DNA from: Aceticella autotrophica | GTDB lineage: Bacteria; Bacillota; Thermoanaerobacteria; Thermoanaerobacterales; Thermoanaerobacteraceae | Direction of reading: 5' to 3' | DNA length: 64,000 bases | Assembly: GCF_017357865.1 (NCBI RefSeq) | Contig: NZ_CP060096.1 | Location: forward strand, 62,001-126,000 | Shown here: positions 17,582 to 32,030 of the stretch, piece by piece | Layout: every line of letters begins with the position of its first letter | Numbering within the stretch: position 1 is the stretch's first letter | Program-made: the position numbers and the translations under genes | Notes under the pieces: generated by a model | The model's database searches: none | The model's input: only the letters and a program-made list of their open reading frames with translations | What the model was told of the DNA's origin: nothing

Positions 17582-18358
17582 TTAATACCTCCCCTCCCAT
17601 CTATTAAACCATATTATACCGCCAACCAACATGATTATAAAAAAGATCCCTGCAGGTATTAAACCCTTCATGGTCGTAAGCCAGAAGACCTGTGAAAGTG
17701 TGAATTTTGATAATTCTGATGGAACTTTGATACCAGGTAAATAAATAGCCAGAAGCCCGGATAAACGTGCCGGCCATGCCCACGGCACAAATTGCCAGAT
17801 TTTATCTCCGAGACCTGTAATCATTAAAGATGATATCAAAGCGCCACCACATCCGAATCCAATAGATGCTCCCATTCCCCAAGCAAAACTTATCCATAGA
17901 TGTAAAGCTAATAATGGCAAAGTTCCTATCACAGCCATCAATGCCGCTGATAAGAAGATTGGCCATGAAACAGGTATATTCAAAATATAATTTGTACCTG
18001 CCACAATTATTATTGTTTCAAGTAATGTACTACACAAAGAAAATAATACAAGTATTGTAAGTTTCCCAAGATAAAGACTACTTTTGGACACTTTACTTCC
18101 CAGAAACCCATTGAAGCTCCCTGCCACTTCTTCCTGATGCACTATGAGTCCAGAAATCAAACCGGCTTCTACTGGAATAATTAGTCCTGTCCATGTTAAA
18201 AAATTGCCCATGTAAATTGCTACCTGAATATCTGGTGTGATTGCTCTCAAGGAAAAATACCATAAAATGAGTACTGCAAACCCTATAGGTGTTAAAAATG
18301 CAAACCAGCGTATAAATGTACGCTTTGTCTTAAGCCACTCTGCAGACAATATTTTCAT
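17582..18358 (-). CDS. lanG: Lantibiotic immunity ABC transporter permease, LanG-like
   Basis: A 258-residue membrane protein with six hydrophobic segments and the start MKILSAEWLKTKRTFIRW, typical of LanE/LanG/MutE-type ABC-2 permeases that expel lantibiotic from the membrane. The opening codons overlap the stop of lanE (..TAATG). Third gene of an F-E-G operon. Subunit identity (G rather than E) is assigned by order only. Confidence 0.85.
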   Translation of the reverse strand: MKILSAEWLKTKRTFIRWFAFLTPIGFAVLILWYFSLRAITPDIQVAIYMGNFLTWTGLIIPVEAGLISGLIVHQEEVAGSFNGFLGSKVSKSSLYLGKLTILVLFSLCSTLLETIIIVAGTNYILNIPVSWPIFLSAALMAVIGTLPLLALHLWISFAWGMGASIGFGCGGALISSLMITGLGDKIWQFVPWAWPARLSGLLAIYLPGIKVPSELSKFTLSQVFWLTTMKGLIPAGIFFIIMLVGGIIWFNRWEGRY

Positions 18359-19125
18359 TATTTCACCTCCTCTTTATTAAACCATATGGCTGTTAGAAAA
18401 GTAAAGACTACTAAAGTTATAATTGAAACAGCTATCCCAACTGGTATTACAGATGAATCGAGCAATGGATCACCAGGGCTTAAAGGTATACCATTGGGGT
18501 GTACCCCTGTTATCGGGCTCAGGAGTCGCATTGGCCAGCTCCATGGTACATATATCCAATACGGTTTTGGTGCTTCTTCTGCTCCTATAATAAGACCAAA
18601 AATGCCTAATGCAATGCTAACAGCAGTACCCTTCCATGTAGCTGCCCACAACTGCAATGGTATTAATGGAAGTGAGGTAAGCCATATAGTAAAACCACCG
18701 GCAAAAATCTTTAACCATGGAATATCTTTACCAACCGTAATTACCCCTGAAATAATTATTACAACAATAAGAACCAGTGTGGTAAGAAAAGTGTGAATTG
18801 CCATTACAGCTATTTTTCCCGTCCATATAGCAGATGGTGATATATTATGTAAAAGTAAACCTCTATAATTGCCAGCTTTTTTCTCTTGCGACTGTACCAA
18901 TGCAGCAAAAAGTGCTATACCCATTGGGGTAAATAGAACAGACCACCAATTATAACCATTACCAAGAAGGAGTTGCCATGGCTTTAAATGCTTTAAAAAA
19001 TCAGGCGGCATCAAAAATTTCGTCGGAAGTGCTATTAATATAAAAAACAGTGGTGCAAGCAAAATAAGTTTTCTCTTAAATGTTCGTTTATATTTAAGAT
19101 ACTCCGATTGTATAATATTAATCAT
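18358..19125 (-). CDS. lanE: Lantibiotic immunity ABC transporter permease, LanE-like
   Basis: A 255-residue ABC-2 permease with six membrane segments. It begins MINIIQSEYLKYKRTFKRK, the same K-R-rich amphipathic start as its neighbour, and has PWSWPMRLL, shared in form with PWAWPARLS of LanG. The start codon overlaps the end of lanF by 4 bases, so the two are translationally coupled. Confidence 0.87.
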   Translation of the reverse strand: MINIIQSEYLKYKRTFKRKLILLAPLFFILIALPTKFLMPPDFLKHLKPWQLLLGNGYNWWSVLFTPMGIALFAALVQSQEKKAGNYRGLLLHNISPSAIWTGKIAVMAIHTFLTTLVLIVVIIISGVITVGKDIPWLKIFAGGFTIWLTSLPLIPLQLWAATWKGTAVSIALGIFGLIIGAEEAPKPYWIYVPWSWPMRLLSPITGVHPNGIPLSPGDPLLDSSVIPVGIAVSIITLVVFTFLTAIWFNKEEVK

Positions 19126-19823
19126 TTTTTTATTTCCCCCTTTATAACCTTCATAAATAATCCTTCAAGGTCTTCATCATAACTGATTTCACCCTGATAT
19201 TTCAGTTCGCCATTGCTTATTATACCGATATGATCAACAAGTTGTGATACTTCCGACAAAATGTGACTTGATAGAATAACTGTAACCCCTTTTTCAGGAA
19301 ACGAGCGAATCAAATCCCTTAGCTCCTGTATGCCTATCGGGTCAAGTCCATTTGTTGGTTCATCAAGTATCAATAATTCAGGATTGCCAAGGAGTGCTAT
19401 GGCAATTCCCAGCCTCTGCTTCATACCCAATGAAAACTGTGATGCAAGTTTCTTGCCGGTGTTTTTCAGGTCAACTGTTTCAAGAACTTCTTTAATACTA
19501 TCTTTCGACAGTCCCATCAACTTTGTATGAATCAGAAGATTCTCCTCTGCTGTCAAATTCTCATACAATGCTGGTGACTCTATAAGTGCTCCTATCTTCT
19601 CAAGGTGTTTTCGGTTCCACTTTTCACCAAAAGCAATAATTTCACCACTGCTTGGATGTAATATCCCTGTAAGCATCTTTAAGGTAGTTGTTTTACCTGC
19701 ACCATTAGGCCCTACAAAACCATATATTGAACCCTTTGGTATTTTTAGAGAAACATCATTTACTGCTAACTGCTTCCTATAGTATTTTTTTAAGTTTTTC
19801 GTTTCGAGAATATACTCTACCAT
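19122..19823 (-). CDS. lanF: Lantibiotic immunity ABC transporter ATPase, LanF-like
   Basis: A 233-residue ATPase. Walker A GPNGAGKTT, signature FSLGMKQRLG, Walker B LLILDEPTNGLDP, switch histidine in ILSSHIL. At the Q-loop it reads GALIESPALYENL, with Glu where most ABC ATPases have Gln; this E-loop is a known mark of the LanF/BcrA immunity group. Ribosome site GAGAGGATG precedes the ATG. With lanE and lanG it should protect the cell from the cognate lantibiotic; all three genes are intact. Confidence 0.92.
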   Translation of the reverse strand: MVEYILETKNLKKYYRKQLAVNDVSLKIPKGSIYGFVGPNGAGKTTTLKMLTGILHPSSGEIIAFGEKWNRKHLEKIGALIESPALYENLTAEENLLIHTKLMGLSKDSIKEVLETVDLKNTGKKLASQFSLGMKQRLGIAIALLGNPELLILDEPTNGLDPIGIQELRDLIRSFPEKGVTVILSSHILSEVSQLVDHIGIISNGELKYQGEISYDEDLEGLFMKVIKGEIKK

Positions 19824-20373
19824 ATTATCTCATCCTCTCAATAAATCTTTAATCTCATTGACATTTATTAATTTAACAAATAATAATAAGTAATTTATAA
19901 GGAAGTACAAAAGGTAATCCAATAAAAAGCCTTTCATTTCCCTTAAAATCTTGATTTCGATATTTCTACATTTTCGGGTAATATCTCTTTTTATTCAAAA
20001 AGGTTAAAATGGTAGTCTATTATCTCTTTTCAATTTGATCTAATTTAACCAATATATAATGGTTTAAAGAAGCAGAGATTTCGCATCTAAAAAAAATTAA
20101 AGGCTTCAAGGCTTAATATCTAAAGGATTATAAGGATACTGTAGTTTATATGAAAAATCCGATTTTTGGCGGAAAAAATCTAATTTCCTGTTTGTAAAAT
20201 GAAAATATCCTTTTATAATGAAATTTATCACAATACCCAAAAAAAGGATGGTTTAAGCCCGAGTTCGACGGTAAATAGGCATATTTAGACTTATTTTTGA
20301 GTAAAAATCCTGATATATCAACATTTTTCATTTTAAGTGGTAATATTAATTACCTCCCCAAGAAAGGTATCAC
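19824..20373. other. Gene-free stretch between lanF and insertion sequence debris
   Basis: About 550 bases of AT-rich DNA with no open frame I can support. It includes the upstream region of lanF. I see no clear promoter or hairpin, and the right part is probably decayed insertion sequence DNA. Confidence 0.4.
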
Positions 20374-20774
20374 AATGATAATTATAGCCTTTCCAATTAA
20401 AAATATAGATGAATATATCGAAAATAAATCATATTTATACATAGATACACCATCTGGATGCCCTAATTGCAATTACAACGGTAAACGGTAAATTGTACAG
20501 GCATGGCTATTACTGCAGGGGTGTCTTTATCGACAATAATTGCATAGATATTACCATAGCAAGAGTTATTTGTCCTGTATGCCATAAAACACATGCTTTA
20601 ATACCGGACTTTTTAGTGCCATATTTCATCTATCCTTTATCTGTTATTCTAACTTCCTTGAAAAAAATATTAATCGATGGACATGACACTACATATGTTG
20701 CTGATGAAATCATTAAAGAGTTTAATTTGCATTATTTTGATTTGATGAAAGTACATTTTTTCAAAAAAGTTTAA
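20374..20774 (+). pseudogene. DUF6431-like zinc-finger protein gene, frameshifted by a 7-bp tandem duplication
   Basis: ATG at 20374 opens MIIIAFPIKNIDEYIEN..., with CPNC; the frame then stops at 20491. The rest (KLYRHGYYCRG.., CPVCHKTHALIPDF..) continues in the next frame to 20774. The break is an exact repeat ACGGTAA-ACGGTAA (20478-20484, 20485-20491); with one copy the frame reads NGKLYRHGYYC without a gap. Two CxxC pairs suggest a zinc fold. Proteins of this type travel with transposases in clostridia, as here. Confidence 0.75.
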
Positions 20775-21004
20775 ACTTAATTCTTGGTAGATTTTTTTGC
20801 TTTTTTACAAAAGTCATATTTTATCATAATTTAATTGCTATTTTTGACTGTATAATTATTTTAATTCGATTAAAAATGTTTAATCTGAATTTGTCTATGT
20901 AAATTTATCTAATTCGCATTTTATTTCTCCACATAAAGATTTGTGAATGCACCATCATTATCCAGTTAATAATACTTTCAAAGATAATTGAGGAGGCTTT
21001 TAGA

Positions 21005-21331
21005 ATGGATAATGATGTTAAACAAAAAATTGCTTATTTTAAATTTTCTTTGATAGCACCGCTTATCAATGAAAATTACACTCAGTAAACAGCAAAAGAA
21101 TATATGGAGGTTATTACTTCTAAAGTTTATGATGTGCCTTCATTAGGTAAAAGAGAATTCTCGCCTAATACAATTAAGACACGGCTTTACTGTTACAGAA
21201 AATATGGATTTGAAGGTCTATATCCTAAAAGTAGATGCGACAAAGGTGCTTCAAGAGTTTTAATTGATGACATTAAAGCCTATATTAACATTCAAAAAGA
21301 GAAGTTTAGGACGATACAGATTGTTAGATAA
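21005..21331 (+). pseudogene. Transposase N-terminal part with an in-frame stop
   Basis: A GAGGAGG-led ATG at 21005 begins MDNDVKQKIAYFKFSLIAP. After 27 codons a TAA (21086-21088) interrupts, and the same frame goes on with TAKEYMEVITSKVYDVPSLGK to 21331. The second half resembles the helix-turn-helix domain of Mu/IS481-like transposases (FSPNTIKTRLYCYRKYGFEGLYPK). The catalytic domain is replaced at about 21300 by an unrelated transposase. Non-functional. Confidence 0.75.
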
Positions 21332-21900
21332 ATACTGGGTCATAGCTGTAGATGGAACTGGAGTAGCATCTTTTTCAGAAAGACATTGTAAGCATTGCTT
21401 AAAAAAAGAATATAAAAATAAAGAAACAGGAGAAGTAGAAAAAACAATATACTTTCACTATGTTTTAGAAGCAAAATTAATAATAGGAGATATGGCATTT
21501 AGTATAGATACTGAATTCATAGAAAATGAAGGAGAAATTTAAGATAAACAGGATTGCAAGATAAAAGCATTTAAGAGGATGGCAGAAAGATTAAAGAAAA
21601 AGTACAAGAGGTTACTTATATGTATCTTAGGGGATAGCCTTTATGCTGTAGAACCAATATTTCAATTATGTAAAAAATATAATTGAAAATTCATATTTAG
21701 ATTCAAAGAAGGCAGGACAAAGAGTATTTGGACTGAGTATCAAAAATTAAAACGCATAGAAATCAATAAAATAGATGGATTCACATGGATAAACAAAAGT
21801 TATAGGATAGAGTACAGGCAATCATTTTTGAATGAAAATGAATAAGTAGAAAAAATTCAAGGAAATTATTTTCCGAAATTTATTGAAAAGTACTTGCCGT
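21300..21900 (+). pseudogene. DDE transposase fragment with several breaks
   Basis: Frames carrying RYRLLDKYWVIAVDGTG, RHCKHCLKKEYKNK, YFHYVLEAKLI and IDTEFIENEGEI (to 21542) belong to a DDE transposase. Further pieces follow in broken frames (ILGDSLYAVEPIFQLCKKY, FIFRFKEGRTKSIWTEYQ, to about 21900). Stops at 21541 and 21843 and frame changes make it inactive. It is fused head-on to the preceding transposase remnant. Confidence 0.7.
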
Positions 21901-22038: not shown

Positions 22039-23718
22039 TTAAATTGATTGTTCTTCCTCTGATAATCTATCTTTATATGAACCCATTTCGTTTTTAACTT
22101 CTAAATTATAATCAATATCTATATATGGTATATCTTCATGTGAGATTATTATAATTATTTTGCTATTTTTAATACTATTTAAACATTTGCAAAAATTATT
22201 TTTTGATTCATCATCTAAAAATGTTAGCGCTTCATCTAATATTATAACTTGTGGATCATGTACAAGTCCTCTTAGTATTGTTATTTTTCGTTTTTGACCC
22301 CCTGATAAATTTCCCCCATTATTTGAAATCATACTATCAAGGTTTAACCTTTCACCATTTAGCAAATCATTGAAATTAAGTTTATAGATCAGACTTATAA
22401 TTTTATCATCTTCAATATCTCTGCCCATTTTTATATTATTTCTCACAGTATCGTTAAATAAATATGTATTTTGAGATACTACCCCTATTAGTTTCTTCAT
22501 TGAAGTCATTTTTATGTTATCTACATCTATACCATCATATTGTACAGCCCCTGATTGTGGTTTTAAAAGCCCACAAATAATATCTATTAATGTTGTTTTG
22601 CCCCTCCCGTTAGCTCCAGTTATTCTTACTACTTTACCTCTATTAAATTCAAAAGATAGATTATTGATTATATTTATTTTGCCATTATATTTAAATGACA
22701 CGTTTTCTAAGTTAACTTTTTCTAATGTTTTCTTCTTTACCTTATTCCCTTCATCTATTTTAGAATCGTCATCTGCAATTTCTCTAAACCTTCTAAAGGC
22801 TACCAAAGATTTTTGTAAGTCTAAATTTATATTTGATAATGATTTTATTGGCTGGAACAACTGATTTAAATATGATGACAATGCCACGATACTGCCAATT
22901 GTTAATGTACCTTTTATCACTCGTATACCACCATATAATAATAGTACTAATGATGGTACAAAAAACAGGAAAGAAAGTAATGAATTGCTTATGCTTGTCA
23001 AGTAAAGATTATCAAAAGTTTTGTTTATATATTCATGCAATGCAATTGAGAATCTTCTTTGAGCATATTTATATGACTTCATGTACTTTAATATTTTTAT
23101 GTTGGCAATATTTTCCTGAAGCATATTGTTAATTTTTGAATATATCTGCATAAAATCTAAATTTATATTCCTGAATATGGGGTTATAATATTTTAACAAT
23201 AGAAAAATAAATGGTGTTACTAATAGCGAAATTAATGTTATTTGCTTATTTAATATAAACATAATAACAAATGTTACAACCAACGTTGCAACCTGAGTAA
23301 TAACATTTATAAGTGTTCCTGTAAATAAATCTACAACATCAGGAAGTTCATTTAATACCCTTGACATTATTTCACCAGTTTGTTTTTCATTAAAAAAAGT
23401 AATTCTTTGATTCATTATAATTTTATCTAAGTTCATTCTTAAGTTATACAATAATTTTTGTCTTATATATGTAAAAATATATTTTTGGAATACATCCAAT
23501 AATGTTACTAATAAAAATATAACAAAATATATAGCGCTAAATCTTATTAAACTCTGAATGTCCTTGTTTGCTATAGCAATATCTATAATTAACTTAATTA
23601 CATATGGATTTACCAGCGACAAAATAGTTGAAATTATTATTACAAAAAAGCCTAATACTTCCTTACCTATATATGGTTTTAAAACTTTATATATGTACTT
23701 AAAATCTCTCTTTTTCAT
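22039..23718 (-). CDS. lanT: ABC exporter with fused membrane and ATPase domains, probable lantibiotic exporter LanT
   Basis: A 559-residue half-transporter. Six-helix type-1 exporter domain (residues 1-310), then an ATPase with Walker A TGANGRGKTT, signature NLSGGQKRK, Walker B VIILDEAL. No C39 peptidase domain precedes it, which fits class I LanT exporters that leave the leader on the peptide. It lies downstream of lanK rather than between lanB and lanC as in nisin. The role is inferred from the neighbourhood; a general multidrug exporter is the alternative. Start ATG after AGGTGAT. Confidence 0.75.
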   Translation of the reverse strand: MKKRDFKYIYKVLKPYIGKEVLGFFVIIISTILSLVNPYVIKLIIDIAIANKDIQSLIRFSAIYFVIFLLVTLLDVFQKYIFTYIRQKLLYNLRMNLDKIIMNQRITFFNEKQTGEIMSRVLNELPDVVDLFTGTLINVITQVATLVVTFVIMFILNKQITLISLLVTPFIFLLLKYYNPIFRNINLDFMQIYSKINNMLQENIANIKILKYMKSYKYAQRRFSIALHEYINKTFDNLYLTSISNSLLSFLFFVPSLVLLLYGGIRVIKGTLTIGSIVALSSYLNQLFQPIKSLSNINLDLQKSLVAFRRFREIADDDSKIDEGNKVKKKTLEKVNLENVSFKYNGKINIINNLSFEFNRGKVVRITGANGRGKTTLIDIICGLLKPQSGAVQYDGIDVDNIKMTSMKKLIGVVSQNTYLFNDTVRNNIKMGRDIEDDKIISLIYKLNFNDLLNGERLNLDSMISNNGGNLSGGQKRKITILRGLVHDPQVIILDEALTFLDDESKNNFCKCLNSIKNSKIIIIISHEDIPYIDIDYNLEVKNEMGSYKDRLSEEEQSI

Positions 23719-23883: not shown

Positions 23884-25326
23884 TTATAATAAACTGCTGG
23901 GAGCCATTGCAACATTTTTCGAATTTTTATTTTTCAGTTCTCTTATATAAAATTCAACAATTGCACCACCATCTTTTCTATTATAAGCCCAAATATCTCC
24001 TTTAAAATTCTCTACAATTCTTTTTGCAATATAAAGTCCTAAACCAAAATGATCTTTATAATTTTCTTCTTGATAAAAAGCATCAAATAATTTAGAAGTA
24101 TCCTTCACATTAAAACCTTTTCCAGTATCCATACATTTAAAATAAATTTTATCACTATTATTTTCATCATGTACCATAAGTCGAATCTCCCCATTGCTTG
24201 TAAAACGAAAACTGTTATATAAAATATTGTCAAGAACACTTAGCAGCATTGTTTCATCTAATAGATAATAACTTTTATTCAGATTTATATCAAAATAAAT
24301 TTGTAGTTTTTTAGTCATTGTCATTATCTTAAACTCTTTTTCCTTTTCCTTTAAAATTTTATATAAATCTACTTTATGTACGCGTAATAAAAAATCTATT
24401 TTTTCAACTTTATATAATAATGATAAATTATTTGTTAAATTTATTATCCGATTACAATTGTTATTTATTATTTGTATAAATGATTCTATTGGAAAATCTT
24501 CTTTATTTTTTAAAGCCATCATTATTTCTGTCTGTCCCTTTATGATCGTAATCGGAGTTCTTATATCATGTGTAATTGAAGATAATATTTTTTTCCTTTC
24601 TTCATCCATTTTCCACAAATTTTTTAAAGTTTCTTTTATTGTATAAACCATTGCATTAAAGGCTTCCTGAATTTTATTAAATTCTTTGCCATTTAATCTA
24701 TCAATTTTGAAACCAAAGTTTTTATTAGATACATTATCTGCTCCTTCCAACAATATGTTAAGATTACTTGATATATCTAAATAAAGTTTTCTAGTGAAAA
24801 TAAATAGATAAAGCATAAAAAATATCATCGGAGAAAAAATCATTGGTATATATGTAATAGCAAAAAACGGATGCTCTTTTATATTATTGATTATAAAACC
24901 AAAAGGAGCTCTGAGTACATATATACCCTCTAGTTTATTATCCTTTATTAAAGGAATATATCTATACACGTGATAATTTTTCACAAAATCTCTATTAAAG
25001 CTTCTCCAATAATCAATATTCTGCTTTGCAAGTCCTATTTCTCCATAAATGTGTTTGCCATGTACGTCAACTACCTCACCTTGAATCTTATCTCCAAAAA
25101 CTGATAAGTCTAATATTTCACCGTTTAATATTTTATCAGGATTTGCTCTTATATTGACTTCTAAATTGTCAAGATAACGAAGATAATAATTAGTTGGTTT
25201 CATACTACCATTATATATTGGTAATAAAAAAAGAGAATATATAATTATCGATGATACTATAGTAAAAAAGACTACTTTGATGACCAACAAATAAAAATCC
25301 ATTTTCAATGATTTATTTTCCCTCAT
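23884..25326 (-). CDS. lanK: Sensor histidine kinase of the lantibiotic locus, LanK-like
   Basis: A 480-residue membrane kinase. Two transmembrane segments (about 12-34 and 150-175) flank an extracellular domain of about 115 residues, followed by a HAMP-like linker. H-box SSITHDIRTPITIIKG carries the phosphorylated His; the ATP site has DNILYNSFRFT, DTGKGFNV and GLGLYIAKRIV. It overlaps the regulator gene by 14 bases. By analogy with NisK, the mature lantibiotic may be its signal. Confidence 0.85.
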   Translation of the reverse strand: MRENKSLKMDFYLLVIKVVFFTIVSSIIIYSLFLLPIYNGSMKPTNYYLRYLDNLEVNIRANPDKILNGEILDLSVFGDKIQGEVVDVHGKHIYGEIGLAKQNIDYWRSFNRDFVKNYHVYRYIPLIKDNKLEGIYVLRAPFGFIINNIKEHPFFAITYIPMIFSPMIFFMLYLFIFTRKLYLDISSNLNILLEGADNVSNKNFGFKIDRLNGKEFNKIQEAFNAMVYTIKETLKNLWKMDEERKKILSSITHDIRTPITIIKGQTEIMMALKNKEDFPIESFIQIINNNCNRIINLTNNLSLLYKVEKIDFLLRVHKVDLYKILKEKEKEFKIMTMTKKLQIYFDINLNKSYYLLDETMLLSVLDNILYNSFRFTSNGEIRLMVHDENNSDKIYFKCMDTGKGFNVKDTSKLFDAFYQEENYKDHFGLGLYIAKRIVENFKGDIWAYNRKDGGAIVEFYIRELKNKNSKNVAMAPSSLL

Positions 25327-26017
25327 GCTTTACCTCCCACTTATATCCTATACCATAAACTGTAGTTATATAAGAATTTTCTTTATCAATTTCTTTAATC
25401 TTTTTTCGAATATTTTTTATGATTTCTGTCACTACATCTAAATTGCTATCTGAATCAAAACCCCATATTTTCTCAAAAATTTGATTTCTTGAGAAAATGG
25501 TATTTTTATTTAGCATAACAAATTCAATAATTTCATATTCCTTTTTCGTTAACTGTAACTGTTTGCCCATACAAAATACTTGTTTTGCATAAATGTCAAT
25601 TATAATATTTCCAGAACTAAACATATAAGCTTCACTACTTCGTATTCTGTTTTCCCTTCTTAGATGAGATTCGATTCTAGCTTTTAACTCTTTAAAACTG
25701 AATGGTTTCGTAATGTAATCATCACCGCCTATAGACAGAGCAGCAACTTTATCCTCTTCCAAATTTTTAGCACTTAAAAATAATATCGGACAGTTAATTT
25801 TTTCACGAATTATCTTACAAAATCTAATCCCATCCAAGCCTGGCATCATTATATCAAGTATAATTAAATCAACCCTGTTTTTATTACAAATAGCTTTCAA
25901 CGCCTCTTCCCCATTTTTAGCAGTTACAACAATGTAATTGTAAAGTTCTAAATACTGCTTAAGCATATTACAAATATCCTCTTCGTCATCTACCACTAAT
26001 ATCTTTTTTTGATTCAC
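25313..26017 (-). CDS. lanR: OmpR-family response regulator of the lantibiotic locus, LanR-like
   Basis: A 234-residue regulator. Receiver domain with VVDDEED, phosphoacceptor Asp in LIILDIMMPGLDG and the Lys of DDYITKPFSFKEL; winged-helix domain with NQIFEKIWGFDSDSNLDVVTEIIKNIRKKI. Start GTG at 26017 with AGGAGGG 8 bases upstream. A likely target is the inverted repeat in front of lanA. Confidence 0.87.
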   Translation of the reverse strand: MNQKKILVVDDEEDICNMLKQYLELYNYIVVTAKNGEEALKAICNKNRVDLIILDIMMPGLDGIRFCKIIREKINCPILFLSAKNLEEDKVAALSIGGDDYITKPFSFKELKARIESHLRRENRIRSSEAYMFSSGNIIIDIYAKQVFCMGKQLQLTKKEYEIIEFVMLNKNTIFSRNQIFEKIWGFDSDSNLDVVTEIIKNIRKKIKEIDKENSYITTVYGIGYKWEVKHEGK

Positions 26018-26082: not shown

Positions 26083-27409
26083 TTATATATCATGCAATAA
26101 AAATGCATGATCCCAAGGAGTTCTTTTCCCCTTTTGTATCGATAGCAAGGTTAGTAATACCCCTACGGTTCCATCTATTAATCCAATAGAATTATAGCTT
26201 TTTTGTTTTCCATTAGAATTCTCTATATTATAAAAACCAAATGGAGCATTTTCATCATAAAAAGTCATTATTTTTCTAAATAAATCCATATACGCTTGTT
26301 TAAATTCATATAAACCAGTAATTTCATAAAATCTATAAGATATGTAAGCTATTCCTGCAAATCCATGGCAGAATGTTGGAGAATATAATTTTCTAAGTTG
26401 CTTGACAGAATTTCTCATACCTTCAATAGCATATTTTACGTATTGTTCATTTTTTAAAATTTTTCCTGCTAAAATTAAAGAATAAGCAACACCAGGAGTA
26501 CCATAACACCATGCATCTCTTGTATATGTATTAAAAATAGTATTTTTTCTATATTCTTCTAAAGAAATATGCGTCCCCCAAAAACATTGATCATTACTTT
26601 TAATGCAAAATTTAATAAGAAAATCTGCTATTTTCTTTGCACATTCTTCCAATCCATCTACACAGATTCCTATTTTTTTTGCGTTGCATAAAACTACTAA
26701 AGGTCCTGGGATACCATGAGACAATCCAATATTAAAACAACCCTTCGGCCATAGTTTTTTATCCCTTTCTGAAAATTGATGTTCAGGTGGAATATACCAA
26801 GCTGGAACTGTCATATTATCGACTTTCTTATCTTGACACATTTCAATAATATAGAGTACAATTTTTTTTAAAACATCTATCATCTCTATATTGTCTGGAA
26901 ATAACATACAATAACTGGCTATACCAGATATCCCTGAAATAACGTCATAATCATACATTTTTACATAAATATCCTTCGTAATTTGGAATATCAGTTGTTC
27001 TATTTGTGTTACTATGAAATGATTAATATTAAAAATAAATGAAGAGTACCTCTGTTTTTCTTTTGATATGCAATTCGCTGAAAGAGCAATTCCTGAAGCA
27101 CCACTAAACATCGATAACGATCCAATTCCCTTTTCTTGAATTAATTTTCCCAATTAATTTTCCCATTTGTCGCATATATTTATGACCTATAATATCCCAT
27201 CCTTCCATAGGATACTGTTCATTTAATTCACCATACAAAACACATAATGAAGGCAAACCATTACTTAACATTAATTCATTAAAAGGATTAATTACATTTC
27301 TCTCTATCTTTATATAATTATTTCTATTATAAACTATTCTTTTTAAATATTGGTAATCTGACAACTTATCAGCAATATTTTTTACTATTTTATCTAATTT
27401 ATTATTCAC
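26083..27409 (-). pseudogene. lanC: Lanthionine cyclase LanC, disrupted by a 13-bp tandem duplication
   Basis: Zinc enzyme that joins Cys thiols to dehydrated Ser/Thr in the lantibiotic precursor. The C-terminal frame (to 26083) has all zinc-site motifs: SHGIPGP, DAWCYGTPG and TFCHGFAGIAY. The N-terminal frame starts at GTG 27409 (AAAGGAGAGG upstream) and ends NPFNELMLSNGLPSLCVLYGEL...YMRQMGKLI. The frames are split by an exact 13-base repeat at 27139-27151 and 27152-27164. With one copy the protein reads on as MGKLIQEKGIGSLSMFSG, as in NisC. As written the gene cannot make full-length enzyme; re-initiation inside is conceivable. Confidence 0.92.
27139..27164. repeat. 13-bp perfect tandem duplication inside lanC
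   Basis: AATTAATTTTCCC occurs twice without a gap (27139-27151, 27152-27164). Its length is not a multiple of three, so it shifts the lanC frame. Confidence 0.97.
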
Positions 27410-27561
27410 CGATATTCCTCTCCTTTGTAACATGAATTTTTGCCAGTACACGATTAAATTGATTCCCTCTATTCTCTGATTAGAACAAGCATTAATCTCA
27501 AGGCAAAGATCTTTTTTATTATAATGTTAACTAATCAACATAAGTTTTCTAAAAAACTAAA

Positions 27562-28440
27562 TATAACACATATTCCGCATAATACAACATAAAAATTTTA
27601 TGGTTACATATTTACATTTTTAAATATTTAAACATCAGGCGCTTTGCTATCTCCATTCCAGGCAAAACAATTTTCACTGAGTCCTAAAAAGCCAATTATT
27701 TTCTTGCAACTATCATCTAAATTAAGAATTTGTCGCCGTATTTTACCATCAGTTTTATATGTAATAATTCTAACTCTGTCTATAATTTGTAATATTGCTG
27801 TTAATGTAGGCCGTTTTAGTTTTCTGTTATCAATGCCATAAACCAGATCATCTGTTTTTTTAAGGTCATCACGAACAACTTTTTCTGCAATAGTCAGTAT
27901 CATAAGTGCTATTAACAACAAATATACGACTGCTAAATTAGTATTATCAGGCATTTGGATTATTAAACGTATATCATTTTGGTTAGCTTTTTCTATATTT
28001 GTTTCTGAAAATAAAGCACTATCTGCAATATAATAGAATAATTCGTTACGATTAACATCCATCTGTGTTAACAATCGGTCAAGATCCTCCAGGTTTTGGT
28101 TATTATAAGTTTTATCATCCATATTACCTGAAAGAACTTTGGCATCGGCTACATACCGTTGGCCGTACCTATATCTATTTTTTATCATTTCTTTTATCTT
28201 TACTATGGCCAAAGTCAATAGAGAAATAGCTGGTATCTCTGCCATCGCCTTCTATATGATTTGTTGTTTCATATTTGCTCCACATTACTTTGGAGGTGGT
28301 ATCATAGTTTATATTTATAATCTAAAAACCATACTCCGCAAAGGCAAGACTGCTGGCTTCCATAAATATTTGACGGTATCCTGTTTTGATTATTTTAATT
28401 ATCCAATTAAAAAAATTAGTTATGCGGAATATGAGATATA
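27562..28440 (-). mobile_element. Internally deleted insertion sequence between lanB and lanC (IS1634-like)
   Basis: Terminal inverted repeats lie at 27562-27581 and 28421-28440 (18 of 20 bases match; core CATATTCCGCATA). Inside, on the minus strand, a short frame encodes MWSKYETTNHIEGDGRDTSY..FGHSKDKRND, the mid part of an IS1634-type transposase, then after a deletion the frame at 27628-28245. At about 880 bp it is roughly half the size of a full element and cannot move by itself. Confidence 0.75.
27628..28245 (-). pseudogene. C-terminal fragment of an IS1634-like DDE transposase
   Basis: The 205-codon frame lacks a natural start. RYGQRYVADAKVLSGN and SALFSETNIEKANQ match the mid/late part of these transposases, and RQILNLDDSCKKIIGFLGLSENCFAW the end. 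The N-terminal half and first catalytic Asp are gone. It belongs to the element at 27562-28440. Confidence 0.7.
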
Positions 28441-28497: not shown

Positions 28498-31400
28498 CTA
28501 TTTAAAAAATTTTAATGCATATAGAGTATGACAGCATAATGCCTTAATCTTCTTTTCAAACACTCTATTTATACCAAAAAGGCGATTACAATGCAAATGA
28601 ATTACACTATCAACAATCGTCCATTCATTTGATGTAATCGAATTGCTCTCTCCCCTAATTTTATCTCCATAAATTTTTACAATTTCTGCTCTTTTATTTA
28701 AAATATATAGTAATAATCTCCCTTGAATATTCTCTCTCAGTCCCTCCCAATTATTATTACTATTACATAATTTCATAAAGTAGGTACGTTCTTTCTTAAA
28801 ATCTTCTCTATAATCTAAGTGATTTACTTGGGACTCTAAGAATTTTAGTTGAGTTTTATAGTCCCAATCGAACTGTTCCATATAATTTATTATTGTAATC
28901 ATCCCTATAATTTCATCGCTAAATTCAATGTTATGAAGTCTTTTCTCTCTTAATATATCCTCAGTTACCATACTATCAATATAGAATACACTTTCTGCTA
29001 TATCAATTAAATCCTTTCCACCATATCGTTCTATTTCTCTTTCATAGCAGTCAATTGTAAAGCAAGTCATTAGACCTTTTTTTATCAAACTTTGTAGCCA
29101 ATTTTGTAGCTCAGGATATATTTTAATAAGTTTATACTGACTGGCATTAAGCCTTAACCTTATGTGAGGCTCTGGATCCGCATACCTTATAAAAAAGTAC
29201 TTATTAATTTTCTCTTCAGATACCAAGTTACGGCAAAACTCTGAAATATAAAAACAAATCAATTCTTCCTCCATAGAACTTGTGCCATATAATTTAAGAT
29301 AAAGCCACTCATTAAAAGGTATTTTTAGCCTTGTAGGAGACTTACTTGATATATAAGTTGAATTCTCTTTTATCATTATAGATTTTGGCTGCTGGGTTTT
29401 AATTTTCACTAAAGGTATAACTAATTCGGAAACATAACTTCCTCTCTCACTTTTAATTATATTAAAATTTTCATCTTCATAGGAAGTCAAGGTAACTCCT
29501 ATAGGATTATTTATAAACTCATGATATAGTATATCCAAACATTTATCATCATCTATATTTAAAAGTATTCTATTGTCACCTGAGGTTATATACACATAAT
29601 TAGGAACTTTATAATATTTACAATATTGCATAAATAACTCTTTAAATTCTGAGAAACTTGACTTTTTATTTGCTTTAATATTTAAAAAGTTAATTTTCCA
29701 TTCTTCTGGAGTTAGGGTAAAATTTTTATATATAACTTTTGGTACATATGGGAACTTATTAAATACGATTTCCCATGGAAACATATACCATATCCTTGTA
29801 CCATCCAAACTTATATCATATAAGAATCTAACTGCATTAGGAGCTATCTGGGGATTTAACATATTATTTATTGTTATTATTAATCGTTTATTCAATTTTT
29901 TACTTTTCGCATAAAATATATTATTTTCTATACCAATCAAAATATCATCTAAAGTTAGTGTATGTTCCTCATCCCTAGAACTATTTGTAAATAAAGCCAA
30001 CTCATATTCACTGCAATGAATATTTTTAGATACATTTGCACTTCTTAATTCACTTGCAAGATAAGTAATTTCACAAGTTATATAATTGATACTATCGACA
30101 ACTTCTTTATTATAATTTATTTAATTTATTGAAAAAATCAACTGAATTTTCCATAACGTGTGAGAATCTGCCAAAACTTTTTCCTGCATGTGTTGATCCT
30201 CTAAAAGGTCCAATAAAATAATGCAAATTTTGATCTTTAATTTCGTTCTGTGAATCTGACTTTACAATTAAATCAAGTTCTATAGAATTAGGAATCTCAT
30301 CATAACTATATTTTGGTAAATTTAAATTTTCTATTTCATCATCTTTTAACTCGATATAATTAAAATTATGCCGTAATGCATAAACATGCTTTTGCAAGAA
30401 ATATTCCCTAACTTTTTCATCAATAATTTCATTTTCATCATAATATACTAATCTATTATTTCTTGGATGTATATATGATGCTGGAGGTCCTATACCTAAA
30501 TCGTTATCTATCATTTCCAATAATGGAATTTCTCTGTCTAAACCATATTTTTCTATAAAATCTTCTTTATATTTAGTTAAACTATTATTTTTTTTCGATA
30601 ATGAAAGTAATAGATTCATTAGTTCATTTATTTTATTTACTATATTTTTTTGTAGTTTTTTTTCTTTTAAATTTATTCTCATATCTACTTGTAAAGGTGT
30701 TTTAGCTCCTGTTATATCATTCATTTTTTTAGTTAAACCTAAATATAATTTTTCTGCATTACCACCCACTGTATTATTGTAAATATCAATACCCCTCTGA
30801 ATACTAACTAAATTTTCCAATAGTTTTTCATTTATATTGCTCTTTCTTATTTCTTTTATAAGATATTCGAATTGGTCTGGAACAGTAAGTGGAGGTCGCA
30901 AATTTGATATCAAAAATTCACTTTCAATTAATTGTTTTAGAAAATTATTAATTTTTTCTTCATTTTCTAATGGATATTTTTCTAATAAATTTGCTTTTAA
31001 ATCACTATATTTAATTCTTTGCTTTGTCAATTCATACGTAGTTTTAAATGCACTTGTCGCTCTGATACTGATTTCATCAATATTATCCTTCTCATTTTTC
31101 ACTGTTGAATAAACTAATACAGCTCGATCTCCTTTAATAAAAATACCAGCATTATTCTTAAACCACAAATTTTGATAATATTTTATTTCTATTTCTTTAA
31201 CTAATTTCATAATCCATTCAAAATCAGGTCTTGCAAATTTATGAAATCGACTCTCATTATAAAAAATAGAAGTTTCATTATCTGAATATTGTCTAAAATC
31301 AATACCTGCTAACAATCCAAAGGGAGTTGAACGTGTCGTCATTCTTATCAAATATTTGTAGATTGACCGAAAGAAATAATCAGATTTACTGATTTTTCCT

Positions 31401-31612
31401 CCCTTAGCAAATTTAATCATTTTATCATATAAATCCTTGCTAGACACTAATATGCTCTCTCTAAATATAGTATCATTGCAAAGTACTCTTATATATTCGT
31501 TTGATTGTTCTTTGTTAATAGATTTTGAAAACAATTTGTAATAATTCTCAATTGGTAATGCTGGATTTCTAATCATAAATGTATTTATATTTTGATATAT
31601 ATCACATTTCAT
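28498..31612 (-). pseudogene. lanB: Lantibiotic dehydratase LanB, frameshifted in the middle
   Basis: Enzyme that glutamylates and then dehydrates Ser/Thr of the precursor, using glutamyl-tRNA. The first frame (31612 to 30110, 500 codons) has the N-terminal domain, including RMTTRSTPFGLLAG. The second frame can be read upstream to 30120 and runs to 28498; it holds the end of that domain and the elimination domain with EPHIRLRLN and IHLHCNRLFG. Together about 1000 residues, the normal LanB length. The break lies at 30112-30120 in AATAAATTA repeats; one base too many or two too few. The annotated-looking TTG at 30000 is not a plausible natural start because conserved sequence continues before it. 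Confidence 0.9.
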
Positions 31613-31687: not shown

Positions 31688-31736
31688 GGGTAACAAAGAG
31701 TTTAAACATAAATATATACTTTGTACTTTGTTACCC
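31688..31736 (-). terminator. Hairpin with T run between lanA and lanB
   Basis: On the minus strand GGGTAACAAAG (31736-31726) pairs with CTTTGTTACCC (31698-31688) and is followed by TCTTTTTATTT. A leaky terminator here is standard in lantibiotic operons: it makes lanA mRNA more abundant than lanB mRNA. Confidence 0.8.
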
Positions 31737-31769: not shown

Positions 31770-31946
31770 TTAGTCGCGGCAAGCTATGCATGAATGATTT
31801 GAAAAACATCCCTGGGTAAAGCACATCAAGATACCGGTAATACAACCTGGCGTGCAAAGGCTTTTGCTTGTAATATCTGGTTCAATCTTTTGATTATTTT
31901 TCTTAATTTGAACATCAAGATCAAAATCATTGAAATCCTTCATCAT
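31770..31946 (-). CDS. lanA: Nisin/geobacillin-like class I lantibiotic precursor peptide
   Basis: A 58-residue precursor. The leader (about 24 residues, ending KIEPD) contains the class I FDLD motif (residues 8-11). The core begins ITSKSLCTPGCITGILMCF and ends SCIACRD: 34 residues with 6 Cys and 8 Ser/Thr, so up to six thioether rings. The first 18 residues copy the lipid II-binding part of nisin (SLCTPGC.TG.LM), and from memory are closest to geobacillin I of Geobacillus. The residue before the core is Asp, not the Arg of nisin-type cleavage sites. AGGAGGGT lies 8 bases before ATG 31946 (31943 is possible too). It is too short for most ORF callers and stands 157 bases before lanB. Confidence 0.95.
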   Translation of the reverse strand: MMKDFNDFDLDVQIKKNNQKIEPDITSKSLCTPGCITGILMCFTQGCFSNHSCIACRD

Positions 31947-31965
31947 TTTTATACCCTCCTTTCGA

Positions 31966-32030
31966 ATTATAATATTTTATCATTGGACTCATCTTTATTA
32001 TAGAAAATCATATAAAGATTTTGTCCAATG
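31966..32030 (-). promoter_or_regulatory. lanA promoter and interrupted inverted repeat, candidate LanR operator
   Basis: TATAAT at 31971-31966 (minus strand) lies 20 bases before lanA. No good -35 is present, which fits an activated promoter. Directly upstream, CATTGGAC at 31981-31988 mirrors GTCCAATG at 32023-32030, and inside it ATCTTTA (31991-31997) mirrors TAAAGAT (32013-32019). The dyad could bind a regulator or form a structure; assignment to lanR is inference. Confidence 0.55.

Follow-up and report, generated by a model that had tools for sequence, protein, structure and literature searches.

The peptide described here belongs among the class I lanthipeptides related to nisin, geobacillin I, and maddinglicin. 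Nisin itself contains five cysteines, a hinge, and a tail that is unlike that of the peptide analyzed below. Rings A and B of nisin are known to bind lipid II, and the same is assumed for maddinglicin, the lantibiotic of Clostridium maddingley (PMC9889658); structures of MadB and MadC of the maddinglicin system have been described (PMC9889658; PMC12241602). In the geobacillin I relatives the genes follow the order A-B-T-C-R-K. We compared these systems with a locus of Aceticella autotrophica 3443-3Ac. This acetogen is an obligate autotroph and a moderate thermophile, with an optimum of 46-50 C (PMC10213532). Its chromosome of 2,267,618 bp is available as one contig from a hybrid assembly of Illumina and nanopore reads; the genome was reported to contain 69 pseudogenes, and its share of IS-related genes to exceed that of all other genera compared (PMC10213532). 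The word "lantibiotic" does not occur in the main text of that paper (PMC10213532). Our analysis covers a stretch of 64,000 nucleotides, here called the window, and positions are counted from its first nucleotide. When 84,980 species genomes were scanned for relatives, 25 loci were obtained.

On the minus strand of the window, 58 codons at positions 31946-31770 encode the class I lanthipeptide precursor LanA, with the translation MMKDFNDFDLDVQIKKNNQKIEPDITSKSLCTPGCITGILMCFTQGCFSNHSCIACRD. The ATG is preceded by the ribosome binding site AAGGAGGG (31954-31961, minus strand) at a spacing of 7 nt. The product matches the NCBIfam model TIGR03731 (gallidermin/nisin) with 60 bits (E 1.6e-16), well above the curated cut-off of 29.3, and the Pfam model Gallidermin above its cut-off (E 1.2e-6). 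Because both family models match, a chance open reading frame could be ruled out. LanA carries an FxLx leader box (FDLD) and the core ITSKSLCTPGCITGILMCFTQGCFSNHSCIACRD, and we infer from an alignment with related precursors that the leader ends after EPD. The core contains eight Ser/Thr residues and six cysteines (positions 7, 11, 18, 23, 29, and 32), one less than the seven of geobacillin I. The initial annotation of a nisin-family gene with a strong ribosome site, which keeps the ring A/B sequence of nisin (SLCTPGC), has six cysteines, and lies upstream of lanB, is therefore confirmed by the reading frame, AAGGAGGG, and the TIGR03731 match; lanB follows directly downstream, although as two separate frames of 500 aa each.

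The regulatory signals around lanA are less clear. A hairpin with a U-rich tail in the gap between lanA and lanB (31688-31736, minus strand) may act as an attenuator or terminator, although its signal is modest (z -2.2) and the consensus terminator scan did not pick it up. The promoter scan gave no more matches than expected by chance, and an alignment of the upstream regions revealed no clear conserved motif 5' of lanA that could serve as a LanR box. A perfect 8-bp inverted repeat (CATTGGAC/GTCCAATG) is located 5' of lanA, at positions 31981-32028.

The nearest precursors are those of Paenibacillus pinihumi (26 of 32 core residues identical; gene at L002:10001-10165) and P. bouchesdurhonensis (25 of 32; L003:10001-10165). 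Their cysteines occupy the same six positions as in the Aceticella core, and the suggestion that the tail is unique to the Aceticella peptide was therefore not borne out. Both differ from it in carrying Ser at position 26 instead of 25, in lacking the C-terminal Arg-Asp, and in being accompanied by intact lanB, lanT, and lanC. We found no description of these two precursors in the literature searched. Judged by their gene clusters, they are more promising sources of a real product with six rings than the Aceticella locus. The geobacillin I group (Geobacillus, Parageobacillus, and Anoxybacillus; loci L006-L009 and L012-L014) also comes from thermophilic hosts, but has seven cysteines and intact lanB, lanT, and lanC. 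Core positions 1-18 are identical to those of the Parageobacillus peptide L006 and agree at 16 of 18 residues with L007. Over the same positions, the maddinglicin-type peptide L011 shares 17 of 18 residues. The leaders of L010 and L011 both carry the published maddinglicin stretch LDDFDLDVKVKA; this type again differs by its seven cysteines and by an intact cluster including lanT. Among solved structures, 8byk and 9g04, which we take to be the maddinglicin enzymes MadC and MadB, match the Aceticella enzymes best by far, and MadB and MadC would be the closest solved modification enzymes. The proposed closeness to geobacillin I thus holds as far as a close relationship is concerned, whereas the nearest precursors come from Paenibacillus and the closest solved enzymes from the maddinglicin system. 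With nisin, the peptide shares the SLCTPGC rings A and B and the FxLx box, but its predicted ring C is one residue smaller and a nisin-like hinge is not apparent.

Within the class of the host, no lanA was found in 36 other genomes, and PF04738 occurs elsewhere only as one broken fragment. In another genome of the host's family (G015, locus L051), a fragment of LanB is interrupted by an internal stop and may mark a second decayed cluster.

The genes for both modification enzymes are broken in the window. The dehydratase gene lanB (28498-31612, minus strand) consists of a 500-aa N-terminal frame (30110-31612) and a 500-aa C-terminal frame (28498-30000), with the frame change near 30110-30130, within the N-terminal (glutamylation) domain. 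The cyclase gene lanC (26083-27451, minus strand) is divided into the frames 27104-27451 and 26083-27153, and a perfect 13-bp tandem duplication (27139-27165, minus strand) is located at the break. In all nine close relatives checked, each of the two genes forms a single open frame. No second LanB or LanC was found in the complete one-contig chromosome, and the intact LanB and LanC of a functional class I cluster are both missing from the Aceticella locus. The conserved LanC motifs RDAWCYG and FCHG are still present in the broken gene. A distance comparison gave no clear speed-up for LanB and LanC, and therefore the decay is either recent or invisible in rates. The frame changes were read from the assembled sequence, and one or both might be assembly errors, although the combination of Illumina and nanopore reads makes this less likely (PMC10213532). 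In principle, the duplication in lanC could revert by slippage.

Programmed +1 frameshifting, or enzymes working as split subunits, might still express lanB and lanC from their broken frames, and such a mechanism would agree with the same shift being required at both lesions and with the small amount of sequence missing. We nevertheless regard it as extremely improbable, since the lanB break lies inside the N-terminal domain and away from a domain border, the lanC lesion is a duplication, and one frame runs throughout in nine of nine close relatives.

A LanT of 611-644 aa is encoded between lanB and lanC in every one of the nine close relatives checked. No trace of lanT was detected between these genes in the window; its position is taken by an IS1634-type relic (27567-28435, minus strand) with a partial transposase (27628-28245). 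This relic has near-identical inverted ends of ~16 bp and a TTATAT direct repeat on both sides. This arrangement suggests that the element inserted after lanT had already been lost, although the direct repeat is short and AT-only. A second copy of the relic was not found in the genome. The complete chromosome does not encode a lanT orthologue either: the best genome-wide match reaches 32% identity over part of the protein, compared to 55-67% between the LanTs of different close cluster types. The LanT exporter of a functional class I cluster is hence absent from both its place and the genome.

An ABC exporter is encoded at 22039-23718 (minus strand), but a relocated LanT could be ruled out, since its identity to LanTs is only 22-30%. 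It shares 64-68% identity with exporters of the host's family and with a second copy in the same genome. Homologues of this exporter (L048:3570-9171 and L049:6662-12556) are found near a CxxxCxxC radical-SAM-like protein, assigned by eye, and a second ABC system, perhaps as part of a peptide-maturation cluster; one of these two copies belongs to the Aceticella genome. The cluster could still work if the frameshifts were assembly artefacts and if this or another of the numerous ABC transporters of the genome exported the peptide, in which case a functional six-ring lantibiotic would be made. The intact lanA, lanR, and lanK and the identity of LanB and LanC, which is still at the level of the relatives, would be in line with this explanation. 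We consider it very unlikely, given that an assembly supported by Illumina reads shows two independent lesions, of which one is a clean 13-bp tandem duplication, that lanT is lacking, and that the 22039-23718 exporter belongs to a different family.

The regulatory genes are intact. LanR, an OmpR-type response regulator (25313-26017, minus strand), is 65-68% identical to the LanR proteins of geobacillin- and maddinglicin-type clusters, and the sensor kinase LanK (23884-25326, minus strand) is 48-52% identical to LanK of related clusters. Further downstream, a LanFEG-type resistance transporter is encoded (17582-19823, minus strand). Its three proteins show 83/63/54% identity to a FEG set with its own two-component system downstream in a genome of the same family, compared to 67-70/43/36-44% for FEG of maddinglicin/geobacillin-type clusters. 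A role as cognate immunity is therefore doubtful, and we do not firmly count LanFEG as part of the cluster because it is closer to the stand-alone FEG-RK loci found in the host's class. By protein identity, the transporters at 17582-19823 and 22039-23718 resemble stand-alone genes of the host lineage more than cognate parts. Stand-alone lanFEG genes followed by a two-component system are found in the host's class at L043:6375-10805, L044:920-5360, L045:7773-12134, and L046:3292-7671. The gap between exporter and FEG contains fragmentary transposon-like ORFs (20297-21542), which fits an IS-rich, rearranged region.

The remaining genes could form a module in which LanRK responds to a related peptide of foreign origin by turning on LanFEG, with production lost. 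This would be compatible with a decayed cluster, to which it adds a present-day role. The intact lanR, lanK, and FEG genes, the stand-alone FEG-RK loci in the host's class, and the absence of a two-component pair adjacent to the window FEG agree with such a function. Yet the window FEG is nearer to the stand-alone locus than to FEG of lantibiotic clusters of the same type, the link between LanRK and FEG is a prediction, and a conserved LanR site was not seen upstream of lanA. We therefore view this role as possible, but rather doubtful.

Taken together, our results indicate, with a probability of roughly 0.87, that the gene encodes a true class I precursor, that this precursor represents a six-Cys subtype within the nisin/geobacillin I/maddinglicin group, and that the biosynthetic cluster around it has decayed. 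Were the cluster functional, dehydration of core Ser/Thr residues by LanB would be followed by ring closure through LanC, with up to six thioether rings, presumably S3-C7 (ring A), T8-C11 (B), T13-C18 (C), T20-C23 (D), and an interleaved pair that joins S25/S28 to C29/C32. After export by LanT and removal of the leader by a protease, the peptide might bind lipid II through its rings A and B. Because lanB and lanC are frameshifted and lanT is gone, A. autotrophica 3443-3Ac probably no longer makes the mature compound, and any precursor that is expressed would remain inside the cell without modification. The intact LanRK could still sense a lantibiotic from neighbours. A heat-stable compound had been proposed from a thermophilic anaerobic host; the host is indeed an anaerobic thermophile, but only a moderate one (46-50 C; PMC10213532), and therefore says little about the heat stability of the peptide.

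As far as predicted cores can tell, the Aceticella peptide is not a lone type, but represents a six-Cys subtype common to Paenibacillus and a hot-spring acetogen. One may tentatively go further and place this uncharacterised subtype as a small group between nisin and geobacillin I that is still intact in Paenibacillus but a fossil in Aceticella, where the locus, its production lost, would now eavesdrop on such lantibiotics; we rate this scenario as unlikely. At the sequence level, the core extends the nisin/geobacillin group by one member, and the locus cautions against reading a precursor gene alone as a product. For A. autotrophica, three separate lesions point to an apparent loss of lantibiotic production in an obligate autotroph.
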